Shown in pieces: positions 38,610 through 44,936 of a stretch of 64,000 nt of DNA (the first letter of the stretch is position 1; each line of letters starts with the position of its first letter). Below the pieces are notes generated by a model that saw only the letters and a list, made by a program, of their open reading frames with translations, searched no databases and was not told the origin of the DNA. The position numbers and the translations under genes are program-made. Source of the DNA: Marinifilum sp. D714 (GTDB lineage Bacteria; Bacteroidota; Bacteroidia; Bacteroidales; Marinifilaceae); assembly GCF_030851345.1 (NCBI RefSeq), contig NZ_JALPNU010000002.1, forward strand, positions 248,001-312,000, read 5' to 3'.

Positions 38610-39620
38610 TTAATTAATGACTAAATCCTTCAGAGTAGCAATCCATTTTGGATGATCATTTAAGCTCTCTACCAATACCAGTTCTTTACCACCATTTTCT
38701 TCAAATAGTTCGCGGTATTCTATGCCAATTTCCACTGTTGTTTCAAGGCAATCTGCTACAAATGCAGGACTAAATACCATTAGTTTTTTAGAGCCTTTCT
38801 GGGCTTGTTCAATTACCACCTTATCCGAAAAAGGTTCCAGCCAGTTTTTGTCCAATCTCGACTGAAAGGCAACCGTATATTTCTCTTTAGGGATATTTAA
38901 TTTTTCAGCCAGCAGTTTACTGGTTTCGTAGCAAGTAGCACGATAGCAAAAGTAATCAGTATCTGGTCGGAATTGTTTGTCGCAATCACAATTCTTACAA
39001 TTCTTTTGTGGATGTACCTTGTTTACTTGTCGCAAAGGCAAGCCATGATAGGAGAAAATAAAGTGATCAAAATCGTTTAAATCATGTTTATTTGCGTTAT
39101 CTACTATTGTATTTAGATATCCTTCATGATCGAAAAACTGATTCACCAATTTTATTTCGGGTATTACCTCCCAGCTTCTGATAATCTCCATCGCCTTTTC
39201 GAAAGTAGAGCCTGTAGTTGAGGAGGCATATTGTGGATACATAGGGAGAATGATCAATTTGTCGGGCATATCCAATCTAATCTTCTCTAAAACTTTCTTC
39301 ATAGAAGGTTCCTGATACCTCATGGCCAATTCCACCTTAAAATTCTCATCAAGTTCTTGCTGAAGCAGGTCTTTTACTTTTTCACCATAAATCATCAATG
39401 GAGAACCATCTTTGGTCCACAATTGCTTGTATATTTTCGATGATCCTTTGGCTCTGAACGGTACAATAATCAGGTTTACCAATATTTTTCGAAGCAACCA
39501 AGGGATATCAATTACCCTTCTGTCGTTCAAAAATTCGAATAAGTAGGTACGAACATCAGATACATTTGGACTTTTTGGAGTTCCCAAGTTTAGAAGCAGG
39601 ACAGTAGTTTTCTTTGACAT
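38610..39620 (-). CDS. hemH: Ferrochelatase with internal cysteine cluster
   Basis: Ferrochelatase inserts iron into protoporphyrin IX, the last step of haem synthesis. The 336-residue protein has the start TTVLLLNLGTPKSP, the active His192 in FIFSYHGLPLRQV, and the C-terminal FSPAFVADCLETTVEI. Five cysteines cluster at 208, 211, 213, 225 and 230 (NCKNCDCDKQF...FCYRATC), a region where some bacterial ferrochelatases bind a [2Fe-2S] cluster. It lies 89 bp after hemF and may be cotranscribed. Confidence 0.95.
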   Translation of the reverse strand: MSKKTTVLLLNLGTPKSPNVSDVRTYLFEFLNDRRVIDIPWLLRKILVNLIIVPFRAKGSSKIYKQLWTKDGSPLMIYGEKVKDLLQQELDENFKVELAMRYQEPSMKKVLEKIRLDMPDKLIILPMYPQYASSTTGSTFEKAMEIIRSWEVIPEIKLVNQFFDHEGYLNTIVDNANKHDLNDFDHFIFSYHGLPLRQVNKVHPQKNCKNCDCDKQFRPDTDYFCYRATCYETSKLLAEKLNIPKEKYTVAFQSRLDKNWLEPFSDKVVIEQAQKGSKKLMVFSPAFVADCLETTVEIGIEYRELFEENGGKELVLVESLNDHPKWIATLKDLVIN

Positions 39621-39709
39621 AGTGCGTTAGTAACAACAATTAAAAAAGGAAATGCATTTTACATTTCCCTTCTGAAATTAATATTTTATTTCAACAATTG
39701 TATAACAAT

Positions 39710-40615
39710 TTAAAAAGTTAATGGTTCAAGCCAATTAATATCTTTTTTTAAAAGCTGTAAGGTTTGTGCCTCTTTCGATCCTTCTTTCACTTCGTATTGA
39801 TAGGTCCATTTTACTTCTGGCGGCATACTGACCAAAATTGATTCGGTTCTGCCATTGGTATCCAATCCAAATTTTGTTCCCTTATCCAATACCAGGTTGA
39901 ACTCAACATATCTTCCACGACGATGCAATTGCCAGTCTTTTTCCTGCTCGCTGTACAATTTAGATGCATTGCTTCGCATGATTTCGCAATAGGTAGGAGC
40001 GAAAAGTTCACCTACATCCAGAACAAAAGCAAACAGCTGTTCTTTTGTCATTCCCGAGGAATCGTTCAGATGATCGAAGAAAATGCCTCCAACACCACGT
40101 GTTTCATTTCTGAAAGGCAAATAGAAATATTCATCGGCCCAAGGTTTAAATTTGTTGTAAAACTCAGGATTGTGTTTGTCGCAAACTTCCTTCAATTTCA
40201 AATGAAATTCTTTTGCCTGATTTTTATCTACATAAATTGGAGTGAGATCGATTCCTCCTCCAAACCAATAGCTGCCATCACTTAGCTCAAAATAGCGAAC
40301 ATTCATATGTATAATGGGCACATGAGGGTTTTCGGGATGCATGATTAAGGAAACACCTGTCGCAAAAAAATCATCAGCCTCAAGCTTTAATTTGTTCTTT
40401 ATTTTCTCAGGTAACTCTCCATGAACAGCAGAAAACTGAACCCCACCTTTCTCTATGATATTTCCATTTTTAATTACACGGCTTCTTCCACCTCCACCAG
40501 CTTCACGTTTCCAAATGTCTTCATGAAATTGAGCACCACCATCGCAATTTTCCAATACTTTGGTAATTTTATTTTGTAGCTTTTTAAATTCTTCGGCTAT
40601 ATATTCTTTCTGCAT
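39710..40615 (-). CDS. hemF: Oxygen-dependent coproporphyrinogen III oxidase
   Basis: HemF oxidises coproporphyrinogen III with oxygen in haem synthesis. The 301-residue protein has family marks WKREAGGGGRSRVIKNG, EKGGVQFSAVHG, VSLIMHPENPHVPIIHMNVRYF, WFGGGIDLTPIY and GVGGIFFDHLN. Its presence points to life with at least some oxygen. It is 16 bp downstream of the DUF6787-like gene and just upstream of hemH. Confidence 0.95.
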   Translation of the reverse strand: MQKEYIAEEFKKLQNKITKVLENCDGGAQFHEDIWKREAGGGGRSRVIKNGNIIEKGGVQFSAVHGELPEKIKNKLKLEADDFFATGVSLIMHPENPHVPIIHMNVRYFELSDGSYWFGGGIDLTPIYVDKNQAKEFHLKLKEVCDKHNPEFYNKFKPWADEYFYLPFRNETRGVGGIFFDHLNDSSGMTKEQLFAFVLDVGELFAPTYCEIMRSNASKLYSEQEKDWQLHRRGRYVEFNLVLDKGTKFGLDTNGRTESILVSMPPEVKWTYQYEVKEGSKEAQTLQLLKKDINWLEPLTF

Positions 40616-40631
40616 ATTGTATTCTGTTTGT

Positions 40632-40949
40632 TTAGTATGATTTTGTTGCAGCCTTGTTGCTTTTCCTTTGAAACCGACTCAACATTCTCTTTTCAAAATT
40701 CCAAAAGAAACGGAATTGTCCGAATAGCGTTCCCACAATCAAAAGTAGAACCTGGTAAGTTGGTGTGATGATAAGAATGCTAAGAAGAATTCTTAGTAAA
40801 ATATTTGTGTCAGCATCTATTGAGAAGTATTCAAATATTGGGTTACGAATCATTACAGATAAACTACCTGTAATCGAGAATACAATTAGAATGATAACCA
40901 GTTGTAGGTTTGAATTGATTTCCCAGCGTTTTTTTAGTTTGTCGAACAT
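40632..40949 (-). CDS. DUF6787-like small membrane protein
   Basis: The 105-residue protein begins FDKLKKRWEINSNLQLVIILIVFSITGSLSV, has a second membrane segment ILLRILLSILIITPTYQVLLLIVGTLFG, and a basic C-terminus (FEKRMLSRFQRKSNK). The pattern fits DUF6787 of Bacteroidota; the function is unknown. It is the first gene of a hemF-hemH unit. Confidence 0.75.
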   Translation of the reverse strand: MFDKLKKRWEINSNLQLVIILIVFSITGSLSVMIRNPIFEYFSIDADTNILLRILLSILIITPTYQVLLLIVGTLFGQFRFFWNFEKRMLSRFQRKSNKAATKSY

Positions 40950-40983
40950 CTAGAAGTATTATTTAGATTAGTTTTAGATAAAA

Positions 40984-40991
40984 CAAATATA
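40984..40991 (-). promoter_or_regulatory. Promoter of the hemF-hemH unit (-7 box)
   Basis: The minus strand reads TATATTTG, a full match to TAnnTTTG, 35 bp upstream of the DUF6787-like start. Confidence 0.6.
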
Positions 40992-41181
40992 ATATAAAAT
41001 ACCTTTAGGTCTGAAATAGCATTTAAGAAATCTGTTTGATTTTATTGATATGATGATTTAAATAAGAACTTTTAATTTTTTTCAAAAAAATATTCAAGAG
41101 TCCAAGTTTATTGGACTGCTCACGCATAACTTTATACTGGATTTAAAATTCGGCCGATTTTAAATATGAGAGATATTAATG

Positions 41182-41206
41182 AAGCAACCTTAGTTGCTTT
41201 AAATTT
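41182..41206 (+). promoter_or_regulatory. Leader hairpin before the double-glycine peptide gene
   Basis: AAGCAAC-CTTA-GTTGCTT is followed by TAAATTTTT, about 23 bp before the ATG. It resembles a weak terminator placed in a leader, so attenuation is possible. Confidence 0.4.
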
Positions 41207-41228
41207 TTAATTGTTAAAATTTAATATT

Positions 41229-41435
41229 ATGAATTTTGAAAAAATTGGTGTTGAAGAATTAGAACAGAATGAATTATCATTAGTTTCAGGTGGTGAAGCG
41301 TGGTATAATAAAATGATGAGAGGTTTTAGAGCTGGAACAAGAGATACAGAGGTGTCTTCAGAGGATATGGATGGTTTTGGTTGGTACTCTTTTGGATATG
41401 GATTAGGTGTATCATCGAGAGAGCAAGTTCATTAG
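41229..41435 (+). CDS. Double-glycine leader peptide (bacteriocin/RiPP-type precursor)
   Basis: Starting at the ATG at 41229, the 68-residue product has a typical leader MNFEKIGVEELEQNELSLVS followed by GG, where C39-type peptidase-transporters cut. The 46-residue remainder (EAWYNKMMRGFRAGT..., DGFGWYSFGYGLGV...) is rich in Gly and aromatics and has no Cys. A longer frame from 41211 would add six residues and break the usual leader start. No transporter, peptidase or modifying enzyme is adjacent, so it is an orphan. The role could be bacteriocin, signal or secreted peptide. Confidence 0.8.
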   Translation: MNFEKIGVEELEQNELSLVSGGEAWYNKMMRGFRAGTRDTEVSSEDMDGFGWYSFGYGLGVSSREQVH

Positions 41436-41520
41436 TCAATTCATTTTCTTTCAAATTAATAAAAGAAGAGTGTGTTCTGTTATTTGACACACTAGTTCTA
41501 AATTATTCATTTTCACAAAA

Positions 41521-41554
41521 AACCACCTCAGAATTTTCTGAGGTGGTTCATTTT
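41521..41554. terminator. Bidirectional terminator
   Basis: AACCACCTCAGA-ATTT-TCTGAGGTGGTT is a 12-bp stem between the peptide gene and the convergent POT transporter gene, with A-run before and T-rich after. Confidence 0.88.
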
Positions 41555-41574
41555 ATAATATATTTTGGATCTGC

Positions 41575-43113
41575 TTACTTAGCAACTCTTTCTAGCCACT
41601 TAAGCATGAAGATAATCGTGAACATAGAGATTACACATGCGGTTACAAACACTGCCCATGTCATCCAGATTGGAATGTGTTCATATAAAATTGCACCAAT
41701 AAATAACAATCCGTTACCAAAAGCAGTAGCACCTAACCAACCACCTTGCATAATACCTTGCAGGTGAGGAGGAGCAACTTTAGATACAAATGAAATACCC
41801 ATTGGGCTAATGAATAACTCAGCTACCGTTAAGATAAAATAAGTAAGGATAAGCATCATTGGACCTACTTTGTCAGCTTCAGCTAGTGGAGTACCACCTA
41901 ATGAAGAAGAGATTTCATTAAACAATGGTAAACCGAAAGATCCTAATGTCATTACAACAAAACCAAGAGCTGCGATAAACATACCAATCGCAATCTTCTT
42001 TGGAGTAGAAGGTTCTTTACCACGAGCATTTAACCATCCAAAAATTGCAACAACAATTGGAGTTAAGAATACTACGAAGAATGGGTTAGCAGATTGGAAG
42101 ATCTCAACAGCGAAATCCCATCCGAACAAACTCAATCTAGTATAATCTTTACCAAACATTGTAAGTGTTAATCCATTTTGGTGGAATGAGAACCAGAAGA
42201 AGATAACCACAGCAAATACAGCTAATAAAGCGTAAATACGTTGCTTGATTTCCTTAGGATCCATGTCAATAACAGGAGCTTCTGCTTTTCCATTTTCTTT
42301 AACATCTTCTTTGCTACCAGCAGGATTTGGGAACGTTTTCTTTCTAGCAATAAAAATAGCTGTAGAAATCAACATTGCTACAATTGCAATACCAAATGCG
42401 TAATGGAAACCTTCGTTAAATACATTCAAATAACTATTTGAAAATGCTTGAAGATTTTCAATAGTTCCACTTGTTGAAGCAGCTTCAGCACTTGATTGGA
42501 ATTTAGCAATGTTCTCGTTAGTCATTGTACCAGCCAGGTAAGTATGACACTGCTCAGGAAGAGTAGCATCATAAAAGAATCCATGCTTTTCAAGCCACCA
42601 TTTTCTGATACCAGGAGCTACAAGAGGAGCAAAAATACCACCAACGTTGATAAACATATAGAAAAGAGAGAAACCAGAATCACGTTTTTCCCTGTACTGA
42701 GGATTATCATACATTTGACCAACTAATGCCTGTAGGTTACCTTTAAATAAACCATTACCAAAGGCAATAATAAATAAACCTACAATTGAAATTGTCAAAT
42801 AAACTGGCACACTCGAAACAGGAGTTGGAGTAGGAATAGCTAGAATTAAATAACCTCCTCCCATAAGGATTAGACCAGTTAAAATAGTTCCTTTATAGTT
42901 TCTTAATTTATCGGCAATAATACCACCTGCTAAAGCAAGGATATAAATTGAAAAATAAAAGCCCGAATAAATATAGCCAGCACTTGTACCATTCAAACCA
43001 AATTTTGCTTGTAAGAAAAGTACAAGAATAGCCATCATGGTGTAAAAACCGAAGCGTTCGCCCATGTTAGCCAATGACGCCGGAATTAGTCCTTTAGGAT
43101 GTCCTTTAAACAT
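41575..43113 (-). CDS. POT-family peptide transporter
   Basis: Proton-coupled oligopeptide transporters import di- and tripeptides. The 512-residue protein has about 12-14 membrane helices. Family marks include MGERFGFYTMMAILVLFLQ (the ExxERFxYY-type motif), GGIIADKLRNYKG, and AELFISPMGISFVSKVAP late in the sequence. The gene is monocistronic. With pepD at 46.4 kb it suggests peptide use, though the genes are not an operon. Confidence 0.92.
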   Translation of the reverse strand: MFKGHPKGLIPASLANMGERFGFYTMMAILVLFLQAKFGLNGTSAGYIYSGFYFSIYILALAGGIIADKLRNYKGTILTGLILMGGGYLILAIPTPTPVSSVPVYLTISIVGLFIIAFGNGLFKGNLQALVGQMYDNPQYREKRDSGFSLFYMFINVGGIFAPLVAPGIRKWWLEKHGFFYDATLPEQCHTYLAGTMTNENIAKFQSSAEAASTSGTIENLQAFSNSYLNVFNEGFHYAFGIAIVAMLISTAIFIARKKTFPNPAGSKEDVKENGKAEAPVIDMDPKEIKQRIYALLAVFAVVIFFWFSFHQNGLTLTMFGKDYTRLSLFGWDFAVEIFQSANPFFVVFLTPIVVAIFGWLNARGKEPSTPKKIAIGMFIAALGFVVMTLGSFGLPLFNEISSSLGGTPLAEADKVGPMMLILTYFILTVAELFISPMGISFVSKVAPPHLQGIMQGGWLGATAFGNGLLFIGAILYEHIPIWMTWAVFVTACVISMFTIIFMLKWLERVAK

Positions 43114-43161
43114 AAATGTTAGTTTTAATTTATAATAGTTTCGTTTCAGTTATGAAAGTGA

Positions 43162-43169
43162 CAAATATA
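43162..43169 (-). promoter_or_regulatory. POT transporter promoter (-7 box)
   Basis: The minus strand reads TATATTTG, 49 bp upstream of the start. Confidence 0.55.
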
Positions 43170-43259
43170 TAGAAAAAATCAGAAGTCCATAATGATTTGT
43201 AAGCGTTTCGATCGAATTTAAATCGTTTTCGTAAGAAGTGGCGAATTTCAAAAGTTTAG

Positions 43260-43267
43260 TATCTTTG
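43260..43267 (+). promoter_or_regulatory. Candidate nnrDE promoter (-7 box)
   Basis: TATCTTTG matches TAnnTTTG but lies 158 bp before the ATG, so the leader would be long. Confidence 0.4.
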
Positions 43268-43424
43268 ATAGGAAAGCCCATTTTGCTGTGTGTTTGGCAC
43301 TTTTGCGAGTGTTTTTAGATATGTGATACTTGTTGGTAACATGTTATTAAAAAGCAATCCTAATAAGAGAGTTCGCATACAATATCAATTACAAATTTAC
43401 GTCTAAATAGAAACTGATAGAACC

Positions 43425-44936
43425 ATGAAAATATTTCCCGCCTCTAAGATTGCAGAGATTGATTCTTATACCATCGAAAATGAACCAATTGAATCTTTAG
43501 ATTTAATGGAGAGAGCTTCGAGTAAATTATTTAAGAAAATTATGAAGAGATTCCCTGCTCCCAGGAATTGTAAAGTTTTTGTAGGACCGGGAAATAATGG
43601 AGGCGATGGTTTGGCTGTAGCCAGAATGTTAGCTGAGAAGAACTATGCTGTTGAGGTTTTTATCATCAAAATCTCAAATCAGCTTTCGAAAGATGCGGAG
43701 GTAAATCTGCAGCGCTTGAAATTGATTAAAAGCGTTGATATTTATGAATTAACTTCGATTGATGCAATGCCTTGGCTTTTTCCGGATGATATTGTGATTG
43801 ATGCAATTTTTGGTTCAGGACTTTCAAGACCCATTGAAGGTTTGGTTTTTGAGGTGATAAAAGCAATTAATGCAAGTGAGGCGAGTGTTATGGCTGTTGA
43901 CATTCCTTCGGGATTAATGGGGGAAGACAATTCAAAGAACAATTATAAAGGAATTGTAAAGGCCGATTTGACTTTAAGTTTTCAATTTCCAAAATTGGCT
44001 TTTTTGTTTCCGGAAAATGCAGAATATGTAGGAGAGTGGGAAGTTTTACCTATTGGCTTACATCCTGAAATTATTAAGCAAGAGCAAACTCCTTATAAAA
44101 TGTTGAATCGGGAGTTTGTAAAATCCCTATTAATGCCTCGAAAAAAGTTTGATCACAAAGGCACATACGGGCATGGTTTATTAATTAGTGGCAGCTATGG
44201 GAAAATGGGAGCGGCGATTTTGGCCTCTCGCGCTTGCTTGCGCTCTGGGATTGGTTTACTAACTTCGCACATACCAAGGTTAGGCTATGAAATTATGCAG
44301 ACTGCGGTTCCTGAGGCAATGGTGAGTATTGATCGTTCGGATATCATTTTTACGGAATTTCCGGATTTAAGTCAATTTAAAGCGGTAGCAATAGGTCCAG
44401 GTATCGATAAAAAGCAAAATTCTTATTGCGGCATGATCAATTTATTGAAAGAAATAAAAACACCTATGGTGATTGATGCTGATGCCATTAATATTTTAGG
44501 AGAGCATCCTGAGTTGAAGAAAGAGTTGCCAATGGGCACTGTGTTTACGCCACATCCAAAGGAATTTGAGCGATTGGTTGGAGAATCAGAAGATAGTTTT
44601 ACACGTAATAACATGCAACGTGAGTTTGCAAGGGAGCATGGTGTAACTCTTGTATTAAAAGGAGCTTATACAGCAATTGCTTGCCCTGAAGGAAGTGTTT
44701 ATTTCAATCCAACAGGAAATCCTGGTATGGCAACTGCAGGAAGTGGAGATGTGCTTACAGGAATAATATTATCTTTGCTTTCGCAAGGATATTCTTCGAA
44801 AGTGGCGACAATTATTGGAGTATATCTTCATGGTTTGGCAGGCGATTTGGCAGCAGAGAAGCTAGGATATGAAGCTTTAACAGCTAGTGATATTATTGAT
44901 TTTTTGCCAAAGGCATGGTTAAGATTGAAAAAATAG
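43425..44936 (+). CDS. nnrDE: Bifunctional NAD(P)H-hydrate epimerase/dehydratase
   Basis: The enzyme repairs damaged (hydrated) NADH and NADPH. The 503-residue protein has the YjeF_N epimerase domain (EIDSYTIENEPIESLDLMERAS; VFVGPGNNGGDGLAVARML near residue 48; IVIDAIFGSG). The carbohydrate-kinase-like dehydratase follows (KGTYGHGLLISGSYGKMGAAIL; VFTPHPKEF; NPGMATAGSGDVLTGII). Both halves are complete. It is 52 bp upstream of the DUF4831 gene and likely cotranscribed. Confidence 0.94.
   Translation: MKIFPASKIAEIDSYTIENEPIESLDLMERASSKLFKKIMKRFPAPRNCKVFVGPGNNGGDGLAVARMLAEKNYAVEVFIIKISNQLSKDAEVNLQRLKLIKSVDIYELTSIDAMPWLFPDDIVIDAIFGSGLSRPIEGLVFEVIKAINASEASVMAVDIPSGLMGEDNSKNNYKGIVKADLTLSFQFPKLAFLFPENAEYVGEWEVLPIGLHPEIIKQEQTPYKMLNREFVKSLLMPRKKFDHKGTYGHGLLISGSYGKMGAAILASRACLRSGIGLLTSHIPRLGYEIMQTAVPEAMVSIDRSDIIFTEFPDLSQFKAVAIGPGIDKKQNSYCGMINLLKEIKTPMVIDADAINILGEHPELKKELPMGTVFTPHPKEFERLVGESEDSFTRNNMQREFAREHGVTLVLKGAYTAIACPEGSVYFNPTGNPGMATAGSGDVLTGIILSLLSQGYSSKVATIIGVYLHGLAGDLAAEKLGYEALTASDIIDFLPKAWLRLKK

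Follow-up and report, generated by a model that had tools for sequence, protein, structure and literature searches.

Scattered regulons of double-glycine (GG) bacteriocins are known from streptococci. In the Blp and ComE-cibAB regulons, the operator of a single C39 exporter is also found at the separate peptide loci, and the peptides are exported in trans. Control relies on histidine kinase/response regulator pairs, and the operators are direct repeats; Blp and Com are also known as auto-inducing GG-pheromone systems. C39 leaders typically have an E(L)-type stretch before the GG. In Bacteroidota, the bacteroidetocins are small GG-leader peptides processed by a peptidase-containing ABC transporter. 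According to the accessible part of their description, they have leaders of 15-16 aa and mature peptides with two or more Cys, their gene lies with a transporter gene, a gene for a TM protein and mostly a thiol oxidoreductase gene, and an immunity gene is not obvious (PMC6671954). The C39-linked RiPP clusters of Bacteroidales, as far as the accessible text presents them, combine GG precursors and C39 exporters with modifying enzymes (radical SAM and others) and, in one cluster, with an HTH gene (PMC10352776).

We analysed a window of 64,000 nucleotides (G000:C28:248001-312000) from the 105-contig, 4.77-Mb genome of Marinifilum sp. D714 (G000). It contains a gene for a small GG precursor, called here the satellite (Table 1). 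The first-pass annotation had described a Cys-free core of 46 residues behind a GG leader. The reading frame was confirmed, with a 22-aa leader (MNFEKIGVEELEQNELSLVSGG) and a 46-aa core (EAWYNKMMRGFRAGTRDTEVSSEDMDGFGWYSFGYGLGVSSREQVH), 68 aa in all and no Cys. The same annotation had seen no export or modifying genes nearby; the seven neighbours scanned include no exporter of this kind and no modifying enzyme, and the C39 transporters of the genome lie on other contigs. Like the bacteroidetocins, the satellite is a small Bacteroidota GG-leader peptide without an obvious immunity gene. Unlike them, as they appear in the accessible description (PMC6671954), it has a leader of 22 aa, no Cys and a distant transporter. 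No Pfam family matched the precursor. The TIGR01847 bacteriocin-leader model gave 13.2 bits (curated cut-off 15.7); the TIGR03949 model (class IIb, lactobin A/cerein 7B family) did not match the G000 satellite and gave 12.7 bits for the G030 satellite against a cut-off of 21.5. The satellite or its relatives match these families weakly and share their type of leader, but all scores obtained for satellites and C12-type peptides are below the curated cut-offs. Rfam matches over 39000-43500 (E up to 1) were judged to be due to chance (RF02621, 28.1 bits vs 114; RF01819, 24 bits vs 50).

Table 1. Features of the satellite locus (positions in the window).
Feature	Position	Strand	Basis
DUF6787 gene, marks the conserved slot on its left side	40632..40949	-	Neighbour scan
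17-bp palindrome GTCCAA-GTTTA-TTGGAC, putative operator	41100..41116	+	Also present ahead of HlyD-C39 and of the GG peptides on C12
-7-type box TAACTTTA, 10 nt downstream of the palindrome	41127..41134	+	Upstream-region scoring; known consensus
Second imperfect palindrome AAAATTCGGCCGATTTT	41145..41161	+	Read from sequence
5'-UTR inverted repeat AAGCAAC-CTTA-GTTGCTT	41182..41199	+	Read from sequence
Satellite double-glycine precursor CDS, 68 aa	41229..41435	+	ATG at 41229, stop ending at 41435; homologues
22-aa leader, end SLVSGG	41229..41294	+	Alignment of four satellites
46-aa Cys-free core, C-terminal WYSFGYGLGV, motif kept in homologues	41295..41432	+	Alignment
Inverted repeat between satellite and convergent POT gene, probable shared terminator	41521..41548	.	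Read from sequence
POT/PTR2-family transporter gene, right slot marker	41575..43113	-	Neighbour scan; adjoins the Carboxylicivirga satellite too

Six of 56 family genomes matched the satellite at E 0.1 or better, and G000, G003, G030 and G032 were kept. G006 and G009 were dropped as homologues, their identity of 27-28% lying inside frames of about 590 aa; a 27-28% match in G002, inside a long frame (583-590 aa), was dropped as well. In the four satellites, the leader pattern M-N-x-E-x-x-G-V-x-E...GG is invariant, with G7, V8, E10, G21 and G22 conserved in all, as is the C-terminal Y-x-x-GY-x-x-G (one row has X at a stop). Slots were located through DUF6787 in 19 of 52 family genomes, and all 19 were inspected. 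The satellite is present in four: G000 (68 aa), G003 (66 aa), G032 (Labilibaculum euxinus A4, an intact gene of 62 aa; Labilibaculum belongs to Marinifilaceae by taxonomy) and G030 (48 aa, then TAG). In G030, the TAG stands directly ahead of the conserved YWVGYGLGV stretch, and a recognisable frame continues beyond it. The remaining slots had no satellite-like ORF under the filter used. Between G000 and G030, the upstream DNA is 86.5% identical over 141 nt, the DUF6787 CDS 68.9% and the core 61.4%.

Outside these slots, an alignment-based genome scan found a homologue in Carboxylicivirga sp. M1479 (50% identity, E 5e-20 against candidate stretches). It lies end-to-end with a POT gene, and its upstream neighbour differs from that in the Marinifilaceae slot. 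The core of G000 is closest to that of Carboxylicivirga (25/46 identical), although their leaders share only 8/22 residues. When 393 genomes of the order were scanned with the four-satellite alignment, nine matched at E 0.01. The sole new near full-length match was in G135, from another family (E 5.5e-17); weak matches in G255, G278 and G067 were left out. The G135 homologue is one of an array of GG peptides whose contig also carries two Rce1-like/CPBP genes; homologues of both peptides of the C12 cluster described below come next (homology by eye). The word "undescribed" in the first-pass annotation therefore needs correcting: in G135 the homologue is part of an array and not orphaned. Elsewhere in G000, the alignment matched only pep1 of C12. 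A single-sequence scan of the genome contigs found no relative, and 72,556 plasmid records gave no match. Judged by these homologues, in the same slot elsewhere, in Carboxylicivirga and in G135, with their conserved leader and C-terminal motif, the satellite is a real, conserved gene.

The genes hemF and hemH are also near the satellite. In G004, a related species, the slot carries another insert (G004:C130; L047, L164), a Cys-containing GG peptide with two radical-SAM-like genes with CxxxCxxC and no adjoining C39 gene. The DUF6787-POT slot seems to attract peptide genes. A tree of the window's POT gene and 15 others conflicts with the genus groups, and the Carboxylicivirga POT groups with those of Marinifilaceae G040/G007. 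The POT gene was rejected as a functional partner because satellite-bearing genomes are not grouped in this tree. With the Carboxylicivirga POT among those of Marinifilaceae, the adjacency of satellite and POT gene may reflect shared transfer.

The first-pass annotation had proposed a search of the genome for C39 transporters. It turned out that G000 has three, on C12, C8 and C40, all above cut-off; the annotation's refuting case, a genome devoid of C39 transporters, thus does not apply. On C12, the order is small HTH gene, HlyD, C39-peptidase ABC transporter and two GG peptides. Among 52 family genomes, six have the C12-type C39 subtype, with E 4.2e-38 or better and frames of 709-722 aa (G000, G003, G004, G030, G039, G050). 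These include three of the four satellite genomes (not G032) and three of the 15 other slot genomes (G004, G039, G050); G039 and G050 have the cluster and lack the satellite. Neither the surroundings of the satellite nor the HTH-HlyD-C39-peptide block of C12 showed a histidine kinase; the block has a response regulator at a distance of about 6 kb, behind lepA. Like the C39-linked RiPP clusters, the satellite system has GG precursors, a C39 exporter and an HTH gene; unlike the clusters in the accessible text (PMC10352776), which carry modifying enzymes (radical SAM and others), it showed none, either next to the satellite or within the C12 block. The C8 contig, which also carries a C39 transporter, has at 117.8-118.7 kb (G000:C8; L021 5794-6745) six tandem, near-identical peptides with GG leaders; each is about 30 aa long, and the core has 12 residues, for example YQDRMINDDILV.

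The genetic link between the satellite and a transporter is a shared, co-varying promoter site and not adjacency. When the 141 nt upstream of the satellite were compared with the rest of G000, the two best other matches were both in the C12 cluster; two weaker ones, on C17 and C9, align with different parts of the 141 nt. The palindrome GTCCAA-N5-TTGGAC stands upstream of the satellite and of the C12 cluster peptides, and a further copy precedes HlyD, where the HTH gene ends. Using the 20-nt sequence AGTCCAAGTTTATTGGACTG with up to 3 mismatches, we found three sites in G000, all exact, at the satellite, C12 HlyD and C12 peptides; the reversed control gave one match. G030 has the site in the same three places, and G032 once, at the satellite. 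The clusters of G039 and G050 have two sites each, with one further 3-mismatch site in G039 (G039:C77). There is one site in G004, whose contig ends inside the transporter, and one 3-mismatch match in G034. At this threshold, the 20-nt site was absent from G003, G001 and G002. In G003, the satellite and cluster share a different site (41 nt, 93%), and the cluster HTH has diverged (28%). An IUPAC pattern built from the G003 and Carboxylicivirga sites was searched in nine genomes, with a control of 0 in all nine. It matched three times in G003 (satellite, C126 cluster, and C80, where a further GG peptide lies close to lepA, a gene that in other genomes flanks the C12-type cluster), twice in Carboxylicivirga (satellite, C39 cluster) and nowhere in the seven other genomes. 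Since the satellites and clusters of G003 and Carboxylicivirga share their own variant site, the promoter site and the cluster, as read from DNA, change together across species. Thus, the term "orphan" used at first pass is true of the position of the gene, but by its promoter site the satellite appears to be a member of a C39 regulon. The second palindrome is the same in the G030 and G032 satellites, and the cluster peptides carry a AAATTTGGCCAAT-like version. In five genomes (L022, L094-L097), a long stretch 5' of the cluster GG peptides is conserved (AAGCCCGAAAAACAG ... CTGTT..TCGGACTTAGC) and might fold into an RNA stem; it is absent upstream of the satellite.

We consider it likely that the satellite belongs to the C12 peptide-export regulon, is co-expressed with it and is exported in trans by the C12 C39 transporter, with a core that is probably bacteriocin-like. 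From this arrangement we infer how regulator and site pair, how transcription, cleavage and export may follow, and what activity the core may have. A dimeric regulator, most likely the C12 HTH protein, would act on the 17-bp palindrome, which overlaps the -33 region. Three promoters, those of HlyD-C39, the cluster GG peptides and the satellite, would be under this regulator, leading to co-expression. The C39 domain would cut the satellite precursor after the double glycine and, together with HlyD and an outer-membrane factor, export the unmodified 46-aa core in trans. The exported core would probably be a class II-like bacteriocin or bacteriocin partner. As for the export in trans suggested at first pass, the C39 transporters are present and one of them shares its promoter site with the satellite, while cleavage and export themselves are predicted. 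As in the Blp and ComE regulons, one operator is common to the exporter and to peptide genes at other loci; unlike them, the C12 block has a small HTH_11 protein, often GG-tailed in relatives, together with a palindrome, and lacks a kinase/regulator pair.

The first-pass annotation had named a bacteriocin, a signal or an adhesive peptide. Rce1-like genes lie beside GG peptides in G039, G135 (two genes) and G221. Rce1-like/CPBP proteins serve as bacteriocin immunity, so these neighbours suggest immunity and hence bacteriocins. The arrays interspersed with Rce1-like/CPBP membrane proteins, the variable cores and the patchy presence make bacteriocin-like activity the likeliest role of the satellite core; a signal role is possible, and an adhesive role found no support. 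As a hint at most, the best AlphaFold model gives the core two helices in a weakly modelled hairpin (mean pLDDT 64.6, three sequences); the other four models gave 42-49, and the model was too weak to support a fold search. It is also conceivable, though rather unlikely, that the satellite is a pheromone, exported by C39 and sensed by the population, which would induce the C12 regulon. Satellite and exporter have their promoter site in common, which resembles auto-inducing GG-pheromone systems, and none of the five satellite slots examined has an adjoining immunity-type gene. However, no histidine kinase was found at either locus, and the G135 homologue shares its array with Rce1-like genes. 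A missing immunity gene is no argument against a toxin, since it is not obvious in the bacteroidetocin regions either, as these are presented in the accessible part of the source (PMC6671954).

With three C39 transporters in the genome, it could also be that the satellite leaves through that of C8 or C40, or through none of the three, and that its promoter site is a relic left behind when cluster DNA was duplicated long ago. A leader model trained on the cluster peptides of other genomes gave 40.2 bits for C12 pep1 and ranked the satellite second, with 14.2 bits. The C8 array leaders scored near it (10.3 and 8.5 bits), followed by C8 pepA (6.1), C40 (4.8), C12 pep2 (4.3) and C8 pepB (2.7). These scores favour the C12 exporter for the satellite only modestly, and the case for it is carried mainly by the promoter link. 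G032 has an intact satellite with its site despite lacking both a C12-type C39 cluster and an HTH homologue, which is evidence against a strict dependence of the satellite on the cluster. A neutral relic, however, would not co-vary with the cluster site, as the site does in G003 and Carboxylicivirga, and the upstream DNA is more conserved than the neighbouring gene. We therefore give another exporter or a relic a low probability and prefer membership in the C12 regulon.

The Bacteroidota promoter consensus is TAnnTTTG. We scored 28 upstream regions for a 6-5-6 palindrome, a set gap and then this box. A gap of 10 gave a total of 283, and gaps of 4-9 and 11-16 gave 233-252. The architecture was found in 18 of the 28 regions. 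The half-site is GTCCAA in G000, G004, G030, G032, G039 and G050; others are GTCTAC (G135), GTCTCA (G291), CTCTCA (G394) and CTATCA (Carboxylicivirga satellite). In G135, GTCTAC-N5-GTAGAC is common to the satellite homologue and the homologues of both C12 peptides. The architecture is absent in ten regions, including all four of G003 and both Carboxylicivirga cluster regions; the site shared by the G003 and Carboxylicivirga clusters keeps the spacing by eye and is not palindromic in the common register. Dinucleotide shuffles reached the satellite score in 5/200 cases for G000 and 33/200 for G032. A looser pattern, itself drawn from the satellite's site, matched only that site in the window, with a mean of 0.07 expected. 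The case for the architecture rests on the whole 28-region set and the three-site count in G000. Its place directly ahead of a -7-type box speaks for the palindrome being a DNA operator. That it is instead an RNA hairpin or a terminator of upstream genes is improbable: the sequence is indeed an inverted repeat, and several clusters have it where the HTH gene ends, but its fixed 10 nt to the TAnnTTTG-type box means that transcription likely starts downstream of it, it is not followed by a T-run, and at the satellite there is no upstream same-strand gene to terminate. A decaying or non-functional remnant is least probable of all, since the satellite, although present in only 4/19 slots and interrupted by TAG in G030, is intact in G000, G003, G032 and Carboxylicivirga, with conserved leader, C-terminal motif and promoter.

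The C12 HTH protein (L022 10006-10335) matched HTH_11 above cut-off. In an alignment of 12 cluster HTH proteins, 11 have GG and one AG in the same place. The GG is mostly preceded by an E(L)-type stretch (ELxxIxGG-like) and followed by 11-27 residues. A thirteenth HTH of 90 aa (G003:C487) lacks the tail, which gives 11/13 with the double-glycine motif (G000:C12, L022, and the relatives L093-L097, L152, L154, L155 and L161); small ORFs were listed only if GG-bearing, and tailless HTHs of other clusters may thus be missed. The tail is also missing from the HTHs of the C8 and C40 clusters. The operator overlaps the 3' end of the HTH gene in several clusters, within the tail-coding sequence. We infer from the motif that the tail may be read by C39. 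As a tentative idea, to which we give little more than an outside chance, the tail would mimic a C39 substrate: the exporter peptidase would bind or cut the regulator, and GG precursors, satellites included, would compete for it. Occupancy would then set the transcription of the exporter, cluster peptides and satellite through one palindrome. Such feedback, no more certain than the idea itself, would be one-component and export-coupled, without a histidine kinase. In the literature searched, mostly open-access and as far as its text was accessible, we found no description of a double-glycine-tailed HTH regulator or of the satellite peptide.

The regulon with its tailed regulator is more interesting than the satellite peptide alone. 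Here, an operator search tied an orphan gene to its exporter, and reading the operator of a C39 cluster and searching the genome for copies is a route to stranded peptide genes of Bacteroidota. Small double-glycine-tailed regulators with a species-specific operator would allow direct tests of exporter-coupled control and of co-evolution between regulator and operator. Among peptides of Bacteroidota, the satellite cores are antibacterial or signalling candidates.
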